Source: Halocalculus aciditolerans
GTDB lineage: Archaea > Halobacteriota > Halobacteria > Halobacteriales > Halobacteriaceae
Direction: 5' to 3'
Assembly: GCF_014647475.1 (NCBI RefSeq)
Contig: NZ_BMPG01000002.1
Coordinates: forward strand, 248,001-312,000
DNA length: 64,000 nucleotides
Position 1 is the first letter of the stretch. Each line of letters starts with the position of its first letter. Both the position numbers and the translations under genes were made by a program. The notes below the pieces were generated by a model that did not search any database, was not told the DNA's origin, and saw only the letters and a list, made by a program, of their open reading frames with translations. Shown here piece after piece: positions 10,878 to 18,434 of the stretch.

Positions 10878-11606
10878 ATGGAATTCACTTGGCACGGCCA
10901 CTCCACGTGGTCGCTCGACGTCGACGGCACGAGCCTCCTCATCGACCCGTTCTTCGACAACCCGAAGACCACCCTCGACCCGGAGGAACTCGACCCGGAC
11001 TACGTCCTCATCACGCACGGCCACGCCGACCACATCGCGGACGTCGACCGCTTCCGCGGCGCGCACTTCGTGGCGACGCCCGAAATCGTCGGCTACCTCA
11101 CCGACGAGTACGGCATCGAGGACGCGACCGGCATGAACCTCGGCGGCACCTTCCAGGCGGAGAACGCCTTCGTCACGATGGTGCGCGCCGACCACTCGAA
11201 CGGCCTCGACACCGGCTACGGCACCTCCGGCGGCATGCCCGCGGGCTACGTCGTCAGTGACACGAAGCCCACGCAGGTCGCCGACAGCGAGAGCCAGACG
11301 TTCTACCACGCCGGCGACACCAGCCTCCACACGGAGATGAAGGACGTCATCGGCCCGTTCCTCGAACCCGACGCCGCCGCCGTCCCCATCGGCGACCACT
11401 TCACCATGGGCCCGATGCAGGCCGCCATCGCCGTCGACTGGCTCGACGTCGACTACGCCTTCCCGATGCACTACGACACCTTCCCGCCCATCGAACAGGA
11501 CCCGCAGGACTTCGCGAAGGAAGTCAAAGGCACCGGGAGCGACACCGAAGTCGTCGTCCTCGACGGCGACGAATCCTTCGACCTCGGCGACCAGCTCGAC
11601 TACTGA
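10878..11606 (+). CDS. UPF0173 metal-dependent hydrolase (metallo-beta-lactamase fold)
   Basis: A 242-residue MBL-fold protein. HGHS at residues 7-10 starts the first strands and the metal-binding motif THGHADH sits at 46-52. Later ligands are in [17 protein letters not shown] and PMHYDTF. This is the UPF0173 family, intact in length and motifs; its substrate is unknown. A TTTTAA box lies about 27 nt upstream of the ATG, fitting a leaderless or short-leader transcript divergent from the aldo/keto reductase. Confidence 0.9.
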
Positions 11607-11709: not shown

Positions 11710-12840
11710 TCAGCGTTCGGACTCGGACGACGACGCCTCCGAACCGGTGCCTTTGACGGCGGCGGCCGCCGCGTCCTCCGGGCGGCGCGCTGGCTCGTAG
11801 ACGTAGGCGAGGTCGTCGACGAGAACCACGTATCGCTCGCCGCCCCGTGTCTCGATCACGCGGCGGTCGCTGTCGATGGCGACGTCCACGAGATCCTCCA
11901 GGGAGTCGACGCGGACGGTCGACCGCTCGACGTCCGGGACGGTCCCCGTGGAGATCCAGTCGTCGTAATCCTCGCGCGCCGCCCGCAACGCCTCCGCCTC
12001 GCGCTCCGCCTCCGACACTGTGAGCGCGCCCCGCCGCCGAGCGACGACGAGCCCCACAGCGCCCGCGAGCGCCAGCACGGCCGCGACGAACGGGACCGCC
12101 ACCGACGTGAACGACGGCTCCACCGGCACGGTCACCGTCCGCGTCACCGTCTCCGAGTCCGCCGGGGCGACGTCCGCCGACACCCGGTAGACGTTACTTC
12201 CCGGGCGGACCACGAGTCGGTCCCGCCGCGTCTTCGTCACCGGCTCCCCCGCCACGGACGCCTGAACCGTCGTCGACGCCACGACGAACACCTGCGCCTC
12301 CCCCGGCGACGCCCCCAACTCCTCCCGAATCTGCCGGATTCGCTGCTCCTCCTGCGGGACGTCAACCGAGAACCCCACCGTCACCGGCTCCCCCGCCGCC
12401 AGCGTCACGTTCCGCGACGCCAACGACCGCACCCGCTGCCAGTACACCGTCTGCTGGCCCCCCTCGCTCGACCCCGACTCCACCGACCGCTCCACCAGCG
12501 ACAGCTCCACGCTCACCCGCGCCGGCTCGTCACCGCCCGACTGCCGGAACGTGTACTCCCCATCGAGTACCGGCGAGACGCGCGTGAAGTAGAGCGACCG
12601 ATTACTCAATCTCGTCCCCTCCGCGAACACCGACGTCCCGTTCTCCACGACCGCCGACTGCTCGTACTCGGCGTCACCGGTCCAGTTCGCGACCTGTTGC
12701 GTCTCAACGCGTGTCTCCTCCGCCGTCGCCGCCGTCGCTCCCAGATAGACGCCGCCGCCGACGACGACGAGACAGACTATGAGGAGGACTGCGAAGTACT
12801 CGTCAAGGAAGGTGCGGAGCGAAAGAGGAAGACGTGACAT
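11710..12840 (-). CDS. DUF5305-type membrane protein of the SipW/TasA-like module
   Basis: A 376-residue bitopic protein with an N-terminal helix at about residues 15-37 (FAVLLIVCLVVVGGGVYLG), a Ser/Thr/Val-rich extracellular domain to about residue 230, a second helix (VAVPFVAAVLALAGAVGLVVA) and an acidic cytoplasmic tail. It matches what I know of the haloarchaeal DUF5305 family. Such genes often sit beside SipW-like signal peptidases and DUF1102 proteins, as here. The function is unknown; assembly or export of the neighbouring secreted beta proteins is the contextual guess. It follows the lectin-tailed gene on the same strand. Confidence 0.75.
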   Translation of the reverse strand: MSRLPLSLRTFLDEYFAVLLIVCLVVVGGGVYLGATAATAEETRVETQQVANWTGDAEYEQSAVVENGTSVFAEGTRLSNRSLYFTRVSPVLDGEYTFRQSGGDEPARVSVELSLVERSVESGSSEGGQQTVYWQRVRSLASRNVTLAAGEPVTVGFSVDVPQEEQRIRQIREELGASPGEAQVFVVASTTVQASVAGEPVTKTRRDRLVVRPGSNVYRVSADVAPADSETVTRTVTVPVEPSFTSVAVPFVAAVLALAGAVGLVVARRRGALTVSEAEREAEALRAAREDYDDWISTGTVPDVERSTVRVDSLEDLVDVAIDSDRRVIETRGGERYVVLVDDLAYVYEPARRPEDAAAAAVKGTGSEASSSESER

Positions 12841-12910
12841 TAGCGTGCGTAGAGTGGGGTTCGCTGAAATCCGTTTGGTTCAGCTTTGGCGAACATTCTT
12901 GAAGTGGATG

Positions 12911-14059
12911 TTATAGCCACTTCGTAGTGAGGTCGTTCGTTACTGAATCTAGTGTGGGTGTCGTGTTACTGTCTAATGACTTATTGTACACTCGAGCCTC
13001 GGCAAGACGACCTATAAAGAAGCCGTTCGTGTCTCCACCGACGACGAAGTTCGCGGAGAACAGCGATCCGGAGATACCAGTTGCCGTATCGAAACTGTTC
13101 GAATTTATCCTTGCTTCCACATCAGTCGTGGAACTATCTGAGTCGTTTTGAGTGACCCGGACAGTGAGAAGGTAGGGCGAATTTTCGCTTGTAGTCGAGG
13201 TCTGAATTGACGTCGACCCGCTTCCTAAGTCTGCGGTTACAGTGCTGTTCGAGCTGTTATATCGGATATACTCACTTCCATTATCGAAACGAAAGAGCGT
13301 CTGATTATTATCGCTCGACTCTGGCTGGAACACGAAAAACAGCGTCGCCTGCTGGTCACCATTACTCGTCAGGTCAGTAGTGGATTCGTTCCCGCTCCCA
13401 TCCCGTAATTCCATCTTATTTGATCCATCGAACTTAACTGTCGGGACGAAGTCCTTCGGGGGCTTCGTCTGGTAGGTCGAGGCTGACGAAGACGTTGTCT
13501 TGAGTCTTCGATTCGACTCACCAGACTCACTTCTCGCATCCCACGAGTTGACTGACCTAGGTTTTGACGTGTTCACGTTCACCGCGCCATCAAACCATAG
13601 GTTGAGGTTATTCACGGAGGGATCTCCGAGCGTGATCGACCGGTCTAAATCGATGTTCAGACCGTTCGTTGCAGAAACAGAAATATTCCCCGTCGTATCG
13701 GTCGACGTACCTGATTCCAGCTGGACCGACGCTACTTTCGTTCCCTCCGAGGAGACGGTAGATGAAGACCCGTCCGAGATGTCGAAGTTGCTCGAGGAAA
13801 TCGTGATGTCGAGCGCTCCGTTCGTCTGATTCGTCACGTAGACGGGGAACGCTGACTCGTAGGTCGTCGAACTATCCAGAACCTGATTGTCTTTATCGAC
13901 GATCTTGAGGTACGCGTTCTTATCGCTCGCGACGTCGACATTCGCGCTCCGATCGGCAGTAATCTGCGTAAACCCCGAGGTCTCACTGACCGCGAACGCT
14001 GCACCGGCACCCATGAGGCCGAGCGCGGCGCGCCGCGTGTACGAGTTCTTATCGGTCAT
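12911..14059 (-). CDS. Secreted SipW-type protein with lectin/LamG-like C-terminal domain
   Basis: A 382-residue protein. The N-terminus has RRAALGLMGAGAAFAV and then SGFTQITADRSANVDVASD, the same layout as the DUF1102 protein at 14878 (GSGAFTSVTADRTASFTVSAD). Two paralogous N-terminal beta domains are therefore present. Residues ~165-382 resemble a concanavalin A/LamG-like jelly roll: LWFDGAVNVNTS, VKFDGSNKMEL, LFFVFQPES and a final FFIGRLAEARVYNKSLDS. Such domains bind polysaccharide. Base composition is clearly more A+T-rich than the flanking genes, suggesting transfer. The ATG overlaps the stop of the regulator gene (ATGA). Confidence 0.75.
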   Translation of the reverse strand: MTDKNSYTRRAALGLMGAGAAFAVSETSGFTQITADRSANVDVASDKNAYLKIVDKDNQVLDSSTTYESAFPVYVTNQTNGALDITISSSNFDISDGSSSTVSSEGTKVASVQLESGTSTDTTGNISVSATNGLNIDLDRSITLGDPSVNNLNLWFDGAVNVNTSKPRSVNSWDARSESGESNRRLKTTSSSASTYQTKPPKDFVPTVKFDGSNKMELRDGSGNESTTDLTSNGDQQATLFFVFQPESSDNNQTLFRFDNGSEYIRYNSSNSTVTADLGSGSTSIQTSTTSENSPYLLTVRVTQNDSDSSTTDVEARINSNSFDTATGISGSLFSANFVVGGDTNGFFIGRLAEARVYNKSLDSNTTPTLDSVTNDLTTKWL

Positions 14060-14598
14060 TCGCCGACCTCCGGGGGTTCGTCGGCGGCACCGATGCGCAT
14101 CGAGCGACTCCGCCAGACGTGGTAGGCGGCGGAGAGCGTGAAGACGACGGCGACGAGCCCGCCCCAGGCGAGGTCGGGAATGAAGCCCGGGTAGATGTCG
14201 ATTGCGACGGTAGAGAGGAGGGCGAGCGAGACGGCGCCGACGCCGAGGTAGTACTCCGCCCACGGGATGGAGTTTCCGGGGACGACGTCGAGGTAGACGT
14301 CGAGGTCGTCGGCGCGCTCGGTGAGCGTGATCTCGTGGTTCTCGAACTCGATCATTCCCGCGTTCGCCATCTTCGGGAGGTGGGACTGCTGGAGGGAAGT
14401 GTAGACGCGCTTGCGCTCCGCGGCGTCGAGTTGCTCGCGCTCTTTCTCGTACTCCCAGGCGGCGACGTGCTCCGCGAGATCACCGAGCTCGATCGGGGTC
14501 TCGTAGCGCTTGCACGCGTGGAGCGCGTACCGCCGCCGCCGGTTACTCAGCAGTCCGAACACCTCGTCGCGACCCGCCGGTGCGTCGTTCCCGATCAT
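14056..14598 (-). CDS. DUF7344-like winged-helix protein with two membrane helices
   Basis: A 180-residue protein. Residues ~10-95 form a winged-helix-like DNA-binding region (VFGLLSNRRRRYALHACKR, then VYTSLQQSHLPKMANAGMIE) of the haloarchaeal DUF7344 type. Two hydrophobic helices follow (about 115-165) and a short acidic tail. It is probably a membrane-anchored transcription regulator. It leads the minus-strand half of the SipW/TasA-like module and overlaps the next gene by 4 nt, so it is a candidate regulator of the locus. ATG at 14598 has a G-rich Shine-Dalgarno-like stretch upstream; a start at 14631 would add 11 residues. Confidence 0.75.
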   Translation of the reverse strand: MIGNDAPAGRDEVFGLLSNRRRRYALHACKRYETPIELGDLAEHVAAWEYEKEREQLDAAERKRVYTSLQQSHLPKMANAGMIEFENHEITLTERADDLDVYLDVVPGNSIPWAEYYLGVGAVSLALLSTVAIDIYPGFIPDLAWGGLVAVVFTLSAAYHVWRSRSMRIGAADEPPEVGE

Positions 14599-14877
14599 GA
14601 GAATCCCCCTTAGGACAACCATACCCAGCACCCCACATAAGTCTTGACGGAATTAACAGTATTCATTCCAGAGAGAAGTGGCAATCCGATATCGATAGAT
14701 AGAGCCGCATCAAACCCCGGAAGCCAGTTAGCAAAACCGTCTTCTGGCCCTGCCTGAACCCACCGAAAGCACCAACTGAACCCATCACAGGCAGGCTCTG
14801 AAACGCATCTGGCAGCCCAATACAAAGGGGATAGCTCTACGAGGCGTAGGTACGCCACGGAGGGCGTGTGAACACCA

Positions 14878-15408
14878 ATGGACATGAACAGACGGAAAGT
14901 CCTGCTCGGCATGGGTACAGCAGCGATAGGGAGCGGCGCCGCCTTCGGCTCCGGCGCATTCACGAGCGTGACGGCAGATCGTACAGCTTCCTTTACCGTG
15001 AGTGCAGATGATAGTGCGTACCTCACATTAAGTGGGGACGGGGATTACGTTTCAGCAAGCGGAAACCCATCTAACACAATTAAGTTCACTTTCGACAACC
15101 TCAACGAAAACGCGACAACGAAAGTGGATGGTGCGCTAACAATTTCCGACAATGGAAGCGATAGCGCGTCAAAGTACGTGTGGGTCACAGGAGGCGATAG
15201 TACGCTGTCATCGGGCGGAACGGTCGATCTTATCGAACAATCTAATAGTGGAAGTATCGTTAGCGATACTAATGCCGTCGACCTTAGCACACAGGATACG
15301 GTGGGAGAGCTAACGGCAGATATCGAGATAGATACTAGTAATGGTGACCCGTCAGGTCTGACCACGATTACTGTTCACGCTCAGGACAGCGACCCCAACG
15401 CTCAGTAA
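14878..15408 (+). CDS. DUF1102/TasA-like secreted protein with SipW-type signal
   Basis: A 176-residue protein beginning MDMNRRKVLLGMGTAAIG, then GSGAFTSVTADRTASFTVSAD. Signal peptides of this type are processed by SipW-like signal peptidases and are found on DUF1102/TasA-family beta-sandwich proteins, which polymerise into biofilm filaments by donor-strand exchange in Bacillus (TasA) and in the archaeal bundling pili of Pyrobaculum. The mature part is all-beta, acidic and Ser/Thr/Gly-rich without cysteine. It is lower in G+C than its neighbours. First gene of the plus-strand arm; the next gene starts 10 nt after its stop. Filament formation is inferred. Confidence 0.78.
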   Translation: MDMNRRKVLLGMGTAAIGSGAAFGSGAFTSVTADRTASFTVSADDSAYLTLSGDGDYVSASGNPSNTIKFTFDNLNENATTKVDGALTISDNGSDSASKYVWVTGGDSTLSSGGTVDLIEQSNSGSIVSDTNAVDLSTQDTVGELTADIEIDTSNGDPSGLTTITVHAQDSDPNAQ

Positions 15409-15417
15409 TCCGCTATA

Positions 15418-16548
15418 ATGCCCTCCCGCCTCGTCGCTCTCGCGCTGGTCGTCCTCGCCGTCGGTGCGGTGTTAGGGACGGCTGGGGCGCCGGGGGGCGG
15501 GGCGGACAAGCTGTCGAAGGGGGTGTATCTCGAGCCGGCGGAGAGCGCGAACGGACAGGCGTACGCGTCGTACAATTCGCAGGGGGAAGTCGAAGTCCAC
15601 GTTAACGGACTGCTTCCGGATTCGACTACAACTATCGACGACTTGGTCGTGATCGGCGTGCAGGGGAACGCGAAGACGCCGCGGGGGGAGAGCGGGGTTC
15701 CGGTGTGGATCGAGGACGGGACACCGCAAGTGACGTTCTATCGGATGGATACGCGGGAGCCGATCGAGTCGGCGGAGAACGCCGTCGAGCTGAAGCGCGG
15801 GGGAACGATGGCGGTCGGCGTGCGCGTCGACGCCGAATCTCCGGGGACGGTTCTCGAACAGGTCACGCTGCACGCGAACGTCGGGAACGCGCGTGAGCGT
15901 TCGAGCGGCGGCGGAGGAGGCGGCGGTGGCGGTGGGTCGCCGCCGGCGCTCTCGCCGTCCGGGGAGCTCGATGAGGGGGGATCGGTGTCGCTCCGGATGA
16001 GCGACGGGAGCACGGTGCAGCGGGTCAACGTCACGATGGACGGGCAGAGCGGCCGAGTGGAGGTCCGTGACCTCGGCGGGCGGCCGTCGGGGACGCCGGC
16101 GACGCACGGCTCGCTCGTGTCCGTCGTCGAAGTCGACGCGCCGGACCCGAAGGCGGGGAACGCGACGGTGACGTTCCGTGTCTCGAAGGAGGTGACGGAG
16201 CGGGGTGTGGCCCCCGATAATCTCGTCGTTGAGCACTACGTGAACGGCACGTGGCGGGTGCTCGAGACGACCGTGACGGAGACGAAACGGGGCTATCAGC
16301 TCACCGTCGAGACGAGCGGCTTCTCGCCGTTCGCCGTCACGGAACTCGAACAAGCGGGGACGACGACATCGACGACGAGCACGCCGACCACGACGACGGC
16401 GACATCGACGACGTCGTCGACCGCGACGGCCACGACGGCGGCGTCGAGCACCACCAGCACGCGCTCGCCCGGCTTCGGCGTCGGCGTCGGCCTCGTCGCG
16501 CTCCTCACCGCCGCGGTGCTTGCGCTCCGCTGCGACCGCCGCGACTGA
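15418..16548 (+). CDS. Surface protein with Gly/Thr-rich linkers and PGF-type C-terminal anchor
   Basis: A 376-residue protein: signal peptide (residues 1-23), a first beta domain to about 160, a run of glycines at about 165-174, a second beta domain resembling PGF-pre-PGF modules (NATVTFRVSKEVTERGVAPDNL, then GFSPFAVTEL near 310), a Thr/Ser-rich stalk and a tail SPGFGVGVGLVALLTAAVLAL followed by Arg/Asp. That tail is a PGF-CTERM-type sorting signal, cut by archaeosortase A and replaced by a lipid in haloarchaea. It starts 10 nt after the DUF1102 gene and is likely translated from the same mRNA. It may anchor filaments to the cell. Confidence 0.8.
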   Translation: MPSRLVALALVVLAVGAVLGTAGAPGGGADKLSKGVYLEPAESANGQAYASYNSQGEVEVHVNGLLPDSTTTIDDLVVIGVQGNAKTPRGESGVPVWIEDGTPQVTFYRMDTREPIESAENAVELKRGGTMAVGVRVDAESPGTVLEQVTLHANVGNARERSSGGGGGGGGGGSPPALSPSGELDEGGSVSLRMSDGSTVQRVNVTMDGQSGRVEVRDLGGRPSGTPATHGSLVSVVEVDAPDPKAGNATVTFRVSKEVTERGVAPDNLVVEHYVNGTWRVLETTVTETKRGYQLTVETSGFSPFAVTELEQAGTTTSTTSTPTTTTATSTTSSTATATTAASSTTSTRSPGFGVGVGLVALLTAAVLALRCDRRD

Positions 16549-16662
16549 TCACCTTTCTCTTCGTCGTCCTCGTCTCGCCGAGCCGACGCCTCGGCCGCTG
16601 TATCGGATGTTGTTGCTGCGACAGGATTATGCCGGTCGGCGGGAGAGATAGGAGCGAACGAG

Positions 16663-17811
16663 ATGGTCCGGGAGTACGCGGAATCCGCGGTGACAGTCGT
16701 GCTCGTCGCGGTGGTGGTGGCCCTCGTCGTCGGGCAGGCGCTCGGCCAGCCGGTACTGCTCGGGTACGTGACGACGGACAGCATGTCCGGGACCATCGAC
16801 CCGGGAGACGGGTTCGTCGCGATTCCCTCACAGCTCACGGGTCCGCCGGACGTCGGCGACGTCGTCACGTATCGCGCGGTCCGCCTCCACGACGGCGGCC
16901 TGACGACCCACCGAGTCGTCGGGACGACCGACGGCGGCTACGTCACGAAGGGTGACGCGAACCCCTTCACGGACCAGGACGGGGCGGAACCGCCCGTTCC
17001 GCGAGATCGAATCGTCGCGGAAGCGCTTCAGGTGAACGGTCACGTCGTCGTCATCCCGGACCTCGGAACGGGAGTGATGGCGGTGAAGGGCGGTGTCGTC
17101 GACGGGCAGCGCTGGCTCGCGAACGCGCTCGGCCTGCGCGCCGGGCTCAGCTCACAGGGCGCGGGCTTCCTCCTCTTCGCGTTCGGCCTCGTGCTCTTCG
17201 TCCTATCAGTTCTCGACGACCTCCGCGCCGGCGATGACCGCGACCGTTCGCGCTCTCGAGCGCGGGACGTACTCGACGGGCGGTGGGTCGCGCTCGCCTT
17301 CCTCGTCATCGTGCTCGCGCCGGCGAACCTCGCGATGGTCGGCGGGAGTACGACTCATCACGTCCAGGCGAGCGGCGACGCCGTGGCTGCGTCGGGCGCG
17401 ACCCCCGGCGAGCCCGTCGAGAGCACGTTCGACGTCCGGAACAACGGCGTCGTCTCCATGCTCGTCGTCGTCGACTCGCGCTCGCAGACGGCGTCGGTCG
17501 ACCGTCGCGCGCTCGCGCTTCCACCGGGAGAGCGAGCCACTGCGACGCTCTCCATGCCGGCACCCCCTCGCGGCGAGACGTCGACCGCGACCGTCTCCGA
17601 ACACCGCTACTTCCTCCTCCTCCCGGAGTCAACGCTCCTCGCGCTCCACGACGCCGACCCGCGCTACGCGTGGGCGGTGATTAACCTCCTTCTCGCCTGC
17701 AGCGTTCTCGGACTCGTCGGCGGCGTCGTCGGTTTCGCTCCGACGCGCGTCCGGGACACCAGCCGTGACGTCCCGCTCCGCACGCGACTCCGCCGGCTCG
17801 TGCGTCCCTGA
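16663..17811 (+). CDS. SipW/Sec11-like signal peptidase I with extended C-terminal domain
   Basis: A 382-residue membrane protein. The catalytic serine is in TTDSMSGTIDPGD (about residue 44) and the archaeal/ER-type histidine is in LTTHRVVG (about 84), followed by the aspartate-containing TKGDANPFTD. A second helix at ~165-185 and a last one near the C-terminus flank a beta-rich extracellular domain (STFDVRNNGVVSMLVVV). Ser-His rather than Ser-Lys chemistry is known for Sec11/SipW enzymes. Sitting directly after the DUF1102 and PGF-anchored genes, it is probably their dedicated processing enzyme. The extra C-terminal domain is longer than a minimal signal peptidase. Confidence 0.85.
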   Translation: MVREYAESAVTVVLVAVVVALVVGQALGQPVLLGYVTTDSMSGTIDPGDGFVAIPSQLTGPPDVGDVVTYRAVRLHDGGLTTHRVVGTTDGGYVTKGDANPFTDQDGAEPPVPRDRIVAEALQVNGHVVVIPDLGTGVMAVKGGVVDGQRWLANALGLRAGLSSQGAGFLLFAFGLVLFVLSVLDDLRAGDDRDRSRSRARDVLDGRWVALAFLVIVLAPANLAMVGGSTTHHVQASGDAVAASGATPGEPVESTFDVRNNGVVSMLVVVDSRSQTASVDRRALALPPGERATATLSMPAPPRGETSTATVSEHRYFLLLPESTLLALHDADPRYAWAVINLLLACSVLGLVGGVVGFAPTRVRDTSRDVPLRTRLRRLVRP

Positions 17812-17937: not shown

Positions 17938-18336
17938 TTAGAACGCGTTCGTCTCGACGCTGACGTCCGCGCGGAGTTCGTCGCGGAGCGCGGCGTCGAC
18001 GTGGCAGATCTCGTGACCGCGGTCGACGAGGTCGTCGACGTCGTCGTCGTCGACGTCGGCTTCCACGGCGATGTTGAAGCGGATGGCTTCGACGTCGTCG
18101 TCGTCGTTCAGGTCGGCTTCGACGTCGATTTCGACTTTCCCGAGGTCGTCGTAGTCGCGCTGTCGGCCGGCGACGCGGAACGCGGGGATGTAACAGGAAG
18201 CGTAGTTGGCGACGAGGACGGAGTTCGGGTCGGGGCCGTCCTCACCGGTCGCGTCGACGGTGAGTTTGAAGTCGCCGACGCGGCTCTGCGTGACGAATCC
18301 TTCGTCGGACGTGCTGGTGACTTCGATGTCTGTCAT
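17938..18336 (-). CDS. OsmC-family protein
   Basis: A 132-residue protein with the two OsmC/Ohr cysteines, one in VANYASCYIPAFRVAG (C48) and one in GHEICHVDAALRDEL (about 112). Members reduce organic hydroperoxides using this cysteine pair; some act on other thiol chemistry. Aspartate-rich loops (DDDDVEAI, DVDDDDVDDL) are halophilic adaptations. ATG at 18336 is preferred over one five codons upstream because the conserved part begins with MTDIEV. Divergent from the DUF5799-like gene. Confidence 0.85.
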   Translation of the reverse strand: MTDIEVTSTSDEGFVTQSRVGDFKLTVDATGEDGPDPNSVLVANYASCYIPAFRVAGRQRDYDDLGKVEIDVEADLNDDDDVEAIRFNIAVEADVDDDDVDDLVDRGHEICHVDAALRDELRADVSVETNAF

Positions 18337-18434
18337 TGCACGTGGATGCACTCACGCCGGCGGTATATTCGTTGTCGTTGCGGCGGGCAGGTGTCTCGGA
18401 AGGGCTTATGCGGCGGGTGGTCGAAGGGAGGGGT

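Follow-up and report, generated by a model that had tools for sequence, protein, structure and literature searches.

The 64,000-nucleotide stretch of Halocalculus aciditolerans DNA analysed here (contig NZ_BMPG01000002.1, forward-strand positions 248,001 to 312,000; hereafter the window) carries a module of six open reading frames (ORFs) at window positions 11710–17811. The initial annotation, a reading of the bare sequence, placed these genes on two divergent arms, and this layout was borne out by the positions and strands of the ORFs, all six of which are present. The left arm, on the minus strand, comprises the genes for a DUF7344 protein (14056–14598), a TafC-like exported protein (12911–14059) and a DUF5305 membrane protein (11710–12840), and the right arm, on the plus strand, those for a TafE-like pilin (14878–15408), a TafF-like surface protein (15418–16548) and a signal peptidase (16663–17811). 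Pfam recognised DUF5305, DUF7344 and PGF-CTERM in the module and nothing in the gene at 14878, and NCBIfam named the products of 14878, 15418 and 12911 as TafE (NF052522, E = 3.5e-32), TafF (1e-24) and TafC (3.1e-11), respectively. As judged from sequence comparison, the gene neighbourhood is that of the haloarchaeal Tat-fimbriae ("tafi"; Tat, twin-arginine translocation), and not a DUF1102 locus or a TasA/SipW operon as in Bacillus. We consider it probable that the product of the module is a thin extracellular fimbria belonging to this taf lineage; the form would be a compact one that lacks tafA, and the "adapter" TafE would probably form the fibre itself.

The original work on the Tat-fimbriae of haloarchaea, which were described in 2025 with TafA as the core component, is that of Galeva et al. 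(2025, iScience 28:111793), cited and described in PMC12687288. In the window, every Taf score fell below its curated cut-off (TafC, 43 against 410 bits; TafE, 111 against 155; TafF, 87 against 420), so the module is a divergent relative. The syntenic cluster L063 passed the cut-offs of TafA, TafC, TafE and TafF, and therefore fixes the identity of the neighbourhood as taf (L-numbers denote haloarchaeal DUF5305 loci from a scan of public genomes). The window shares with the taf systems (NCBIfam TafA/TafC/TafE/TafF, NF052520–NF052523) an equal set of genes and neighbours, homologous TafC, TafE and TafF proteins, Tat signals, a common place in the signal peptidase phylogeny, and neighbouring genes for DUF7344, DUF5305 and the signal peptidase, and it is syntenic with L063, L077 and L079. 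It differs from them in the lack of tafA in both the cluster and the genome, in its scores under the curated cut-offs, and in a TafC tail without recognisable relationship to the LamG tail that canonical members have. Since TafA and scores above the curated cut-offs were both looked for and neither was found, we do not file the cluster as a canonical taf cluster; it appears to be a relative that lacks tafA and that probably has the same mode of action.

A neighbourhood survey, which the initial annotation had proposed, showed that the gene set is conserved across haloarchaea. When public genomes were scanned with a DUF5305 alignment, 80 named haloarchaeal loci were obtained, and conservation was counted in the 55 of these with at least 8 kb on each side, partners being sought within 9 kb. 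With iterated profiles, the signal peptidase, TafE-like and TafC-like genes were each found at 53 of the 55 loci, the TafF-like gene at 49 and the DUF7344 gene at 45. Direct BLAST without iterated profiles found the signal peptidase at 53, the TafE-like gene at 38, the TafC-like gene at 8, the TafF-like gene at 19 and the DUF7344 gene at 45; because the profiles were iterated on the very loci counted, the BLAST figures should be taken as the cautious estimate. As a control, the remaining ~56 kb of the window gave zero matches to the six profiles. Two main gene-order layouts were seen, and the order of the window recurs exactly in L089 and slightly changed in L063, L079, L082, L084 and L087. 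DUF5305 lies 2–9 kb from the TafE-like gene in most genomes that have both.

The TafE-like pilin (176 aa; 14878–15408, plus strand) is the probable rod subunit. It begins with a twin-arginine signal peptide, MDMNRRKVLLG...GSG (14878–14955), and a pair of arginines occurs within the first 20 residues of 84 of its 88 homologues, so the SipW-type signal first ascribed to this protein is a Tat-type one, not SipW/Sec. Residues R6, G26, A27 and R35 are invariant in the 52-row pilin alignment. Cleavage of the signal would be expected before AFTSV, and the conserved stretch AFTSVTADRTASFTVSA (14956–15006, plus strand) at the N-terminus of the mature pilin, which includes the invariant A27 and R35, is a candidate donor strand. 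The AlphaFold2 monomer model (pLDDT, predicted local distance difference test, of 76) shows eight beta strands, is of low confidence at the N-terminus, and predicts no regular structure before the strand at residues 34–42. A filament protein fold had been anticipated, and the predicted fold of the monomer appears to group with donor-strand pilins in Foldseek, where these make up almost all leading matches (FimA forms, the Saci_0406 thread 7pnb and AbpA 7ueg).

The closest solved relative of the pilin is PDB entry 9p0a ("Pilin", 215 aa), which matched at 1.2e-9 with the sequence alone and at 1.9e-37 with the family profile. The two belong to one family across 160 profile positions and both carry a Tat signal, although 9p0a is about 40 residues longer. 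The part of 9p0a shown by the search is TafE-like nearly throughout and TafA-like at its N-terminus only, and is closer to TafE. AbpA (Pyrobaculum bundling pilus) and Saci_0406 (Sulfolobus thread), whose subunits are donor-strand ones (PMC9715654), resemble the window pilin at the level of fold, whereas the PDB search found no significant sequence similarity to either. The DUF1102 label (PF06510) first given to this protein had to be replaced by a TafE-type assignment, as the protein scan in Pfam found no family at E ≤ 0.1. A search of the whole genome for DUF1102 also gave no match; the control genomes were silent too, which leaves the scan of the protein as the more reliable of the two. The one trace of DUF1102 was a sub-threshold match (17.5 bits, cut-off 22.2) that lay in a related TafF, within its pilin-like domain.

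When the 52-sequence pilin profile was run against the whole 3.38 Mb genome, it matched three places only (14878, 12911 and 15418), all in the module, and 14878, in single copy, was the only full pilin gene found. The match in 15418 came unexpectedly from this search. The protein encoded there, TafF-like and the probable fibre base (15418–16548, plus strand), consists of a Sec-type signal, a pilin-like domain without the donor segment (15505–15906, plus strand; pilin profile 1.3e-6 genome-wide, profile positions 55–175), a PGF-pre-PGF domain (2.9e-11), a Thr-rich linker and a PGF-CTERM anchor signal, a substrate of archaeosortase A (16468–16530, plus strand). The PGF-anchored surface protein of the initial annotation was thereby confirmed, PGF-CTERM scoring above cut-off in Pfam (PF18204, 19.6 bits, cut-off 18.8) and in NCBIfam (TIGR04126, 28.4 bits, cut-off 24.5, E = 9.2e-7), and archaeosortase A is encoded in the genome (274.9 bits, cut-off 75). 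A pilin-like domain was present at 37 of 46 TafF loci, and the profile match started at position 36 or later in 36 of these 37; such a start, past position 35, means that the TafF domain includes neither the Tat signal nor the greater part of the candidate donor segment. Profile-profile comparison of the TafF domain with the pilin gave 99.4% across nearly the whole pilin, as compared with 17% for a DUF5305 control. Because it combines a donor-less pilin domain, a Sec-type signal and PGF-CTERM in a genome with archaeosortase A, TafF would be anchored at the surface and could accept, but not donate, a strand. This predicted architecture, a pilin-like domain without donor segment on a PGF-CTERM anchor, is new here.

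The TafC-like exported protein (12911–14059, minus strand) is the probable tip or cap subunit. Its gene most likely starts at 14059, which gives 382 aa and a 4-bp overlap with the stop of the upstream gene; a longer ORF of 450 aa was unsupported. The protein is composed of a Tat signal, an immunoglobulin (Ig)-like domain at about residues 51–144, and a C-terminal tail. The signal contains twin arginines (SYTRRAALGL) and is thus Tat-type, not of the SipW/Sec type initially proposed, and the N-terminal part (signal and first strands) is shared with the pilin family (profile-profile, 99.2%). In the structural model, the N-domain has a pLDDT of mostly 80–94, with Ig/PapD/MSP-like best matches, and the tail is of low confidence. 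The tail (residues 145–382; 12914–13627, minus strand) is an orphan, predicted to be beta-rich, and lies in the same place as LamG in related TafC proteins; Laminin_G_3 ends the TafC of L063 (4983–6269), L064 and L077 (E values of 1e-18 to 1e-24). A lectin-like nature of the window tail, as claimed earlier, was not demonstrable, as no Pfam domain was found in it, no relative was found in 295 genomes, in plasmids or in the PDB, and the only feature was a short LamG-like end motif. TafC tails thus differ between species, an observation that is new here.

Further TafC relatives have swapped C-terminal domains, which are bactofilin-like in L076:11953–13125 and FG-GAP-like (below cut-off) in L082:8461–9909. 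Twin arginines were seen in 54 of 79 TafC-type ORFs, some of whose starts are uncertain; in L072, L073, L091, L149 and others, the signal of the protein in the TafC position looks Sec-type and has no twin arginines, and the pilins retain theirs.

The signal peptidase (16663–17811, plus strand) is specific to the cluster and appears to be of the archaeal type I (TIGR02228, 5.9e-12, 45.7 bits, cut-off 51.85), with four transmembrane (TM) segments and, by hydropathy, an extra domain between TM3 and TM4 that is probably extracytoplasmic. Its catalytic residues Ser40, His83 and Asp98 are at least 95% conserved (n = 90 homologues), and three further partial matches lie elsewhere in the genome. From the earlier description as a Sec11/SipW-like peptidase with an extra domain, the archaeal type I peptidase and the extra domain were retained and SipW was dropped, since the SipW model NF046067 scored 26.4 bits against a cut-off of 190 and the archaeal type I model fitted better. 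The DUF5305 membrane protein (11710–12840, minus strand), correctly named at the outset (PF17231, 9.1e-56), is a probable part of an assembly platform, with a hydropathy-based topology of TM 6–40, extracytoplasmic domain, TM 240–269 and cytoplasmic tail. It was rejected as a further pilin, because its profile comparison stayed at the 17% given above and the overlap was signal-like only. At another locus (L134:10001–10864, contig PXRX01000031.1), the DUF5305 match lies inside an open frame that is very long, at about 1270 aa. The DUF7344 winged-helix protein (14056–14598, minus strand; PF24035, 1.4e-27) is a probable regulator, and its C-terminal hydrophobic segment, seen by hydropathy, agrees with the membrane-tethered winged-helix protein described before. 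Its gene overlaps the tafC-like gene by 4 bp, and the two are probably translationally coupled.

In the mechanism that we propose, the TafE pilin would be exported by Tat and then kept at the membrane, and TafC would likewise be exported by Tat. Cleavage by the signal peptidase of the module would free the N-terminal donor strand of TafE and so start polymerisation; the freed strand would insert into the TafF base, and thereafter TafE into TafE, each donor strand completing the sheet of the next subunit. TafF, as the anchored base, would accept a strand and have none to give, whereas TafC, as the last subunit, would give a strand and, with its variable tail, cap the distal end as an adhesive tip. 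DUF5305 and the extra domain of the peptidase may form the assembly site or platform in the membrane, and the DUF7344 protein may control expression. As a general scheme, which we put forward tentatively and hold somewhat less likely than not, haloarchaea would build self-contained donor-strand fimbriae from one pilin family, with a base of TafF, whose donor-less pilin domain would sit on a lipid anchor, a rod of TafE only and a TafC tip with an exchangeable, species-specific tail, exported by Tat, probably pre-folded, and triggered by a peptidase instead of a chaperone and usher.

Several points weigh against a TafE fimbria of this kind, among them the Taf scores below the curated cut-offs described above. 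The Foldseek E-values are modest (best 8e-4), with template modelling (TM) scores of 0.3–0.45, and come from a monomer model only; donor-strand exchange, polarity and the assignment of base and tip are putative. A cluster without tafA may make no fibre at all. With the TafA model and the 52-sequence pilin profile, no tafA turned up in either the cluster or the genome, which is 99.96% complete; the TafA model picked up, genome-wide, only the N-terminal similarity of the TafE-like gene (48 bits, cut-off 190). Since the pilin profile detects TafA proteins in other loci at 50–77 bits, a TafA encoded here would probably not have escaped it. Five related clusters (L063, L064, L076, L077 and L079) have tafA between the DUF7344 gene and tafE, recognised in L077 and L079 with a profile that was itself made from L063, L077 and L079; in the window, the gap between these two genes is short and holds nothing. 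In the signal peptidase tree, the window falls in the L063 lineage (support 100/99) and, with a weak exact position, inside a TafA-bearing clade (99/90) whose five other members all have tafA, as would be expected of a decayed Tat-fimbria locus that has lost tafA, makes no fibre and displays the remaining proteins as surface adapters. We regard such decay as unlikely, however, as the six genes are intact, the catalytic residues are conserved, and single-pilin-gene clusters are common, with one TafE-type gene in 27 of the 70 clusters that have DUF5305, DUF7344 and signal peptidase. Moreover, the DUF7344 tree joins the window to two tafA-less clusters of equal or nearly equal gene order (98/87), so that the absence may be ancestral; because the two trees place the window differently, they do not settle loss against ancestral absence. 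Both trees set the window cluster apart from the clusters of its own family, which hints that the cluster either moved between haloarchaeal families or belongs to a second, old lineage.

The place of TafC in the proposed fimbria could also be different, as TafC could equally well occupy the base, or act in the manner of a chaperone, given the resemblance of its model to PapD-like Ig folds. A fibre as proposed, in which TafC is an assembly chaperone or terminator whose tail holds it at the membrane or S-layer, would agree with the best matches of the Ig-like domain to PapD-like chaperones and MSP domains, and with the archaeal thread, in which an acceptor-less partner has been proposed as the cap (PMC9715654). 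Ig folds match promiscuously, however, the rest of the TafC model is of low confidence, and the lectin-type tails of three related members fit surface binding, so that we give this role about the same small chance as decay of the locus. We think it less likely still that the module is a biofilm-matrix operon of the Bacillus type, in which the peptidase processes a TasA homologue to make matrix fibres. The fold-level match of the pilin model to AbpA would support it, as AbpA was reportedly found to be related to TasA by Wang and co-workers (PNAS, 2022), and a type I signal peptidase does adjoin its substrate genes. However, no TasA sequence match was found in Pfam or the PDB, TasA was not among the 50 Foldseek matches listed for the pilin model, the SipW model scored far below its cut-off, the signals are Tat and not Sec, and an anchored partner with the same domain indicates fibres attached to the cell. 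For the pilin, membership of the TasA/camelysin family was rejected on the lack of a Pfam match at E ≤ 0.1 and on a family profile that matches only 9p0a in the PDB. We know of no Bacillus counterpart of an anchored pilin-domain protein such as TafF. According to PMC9674648, PMC10151520 and PMC10269814, the TasA-SipW-TapA system of Bacillus subtilis likewise combines a donor-strand fibre protein (as the window pilin may be) with an archaeal-like signal peptidase, whereas sequence homology was not detected, the signals here are Tat ones and a TapA homologue was not seen. Thus, the TasA/SipW-like module of the initial annotation survives as a conserved filament-assembly module with its own peptidase, and its sequence links to TasA and DUF1102 and its assignment to SipW do not.

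The module is flanked by a metallo-beta-lactamase-fold-like gene (10878–11606) and an OsmC-like gene (17938–18351), both named by eye from the sequence. The divergent intergenic region (14599–14877, no strand) is presumed to hold the promoters of both arms; no bacterial-type promoter was found in it by a search that does not cover archaeal promoters. No viral relatives of the module proteins were found in PHROGs. The GC content at third codon positions (GC3) is 0.53 and 0.63 in the two exported subunit genes (14878–15408 and 12911–14059) and 0.86–0.90 in the remaining four, and in 47 of 66 related clusters the pilin gene with the lowest GC3 falls short of that cluster's signal peptidase gene by more than 0.1. 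A possible cause of the low GC3 of pilin genes would be that surface proteins have repeatedly been replaced or exchanged.

Taken together, the window locus and the other single-pilin haloarchaeal clusters suggest that TafE, labelled an "adapter", can by itself make up the fibre, and the pilin domain and anchor of TafF lead to a specific proposal for the way in which such fibres may be fastened to the cell. If the pilins are folded before their export by Tat, a trigger other than the chaperone-usher one would be needed, and the signal peptidase of the module is a direct candidate for it.

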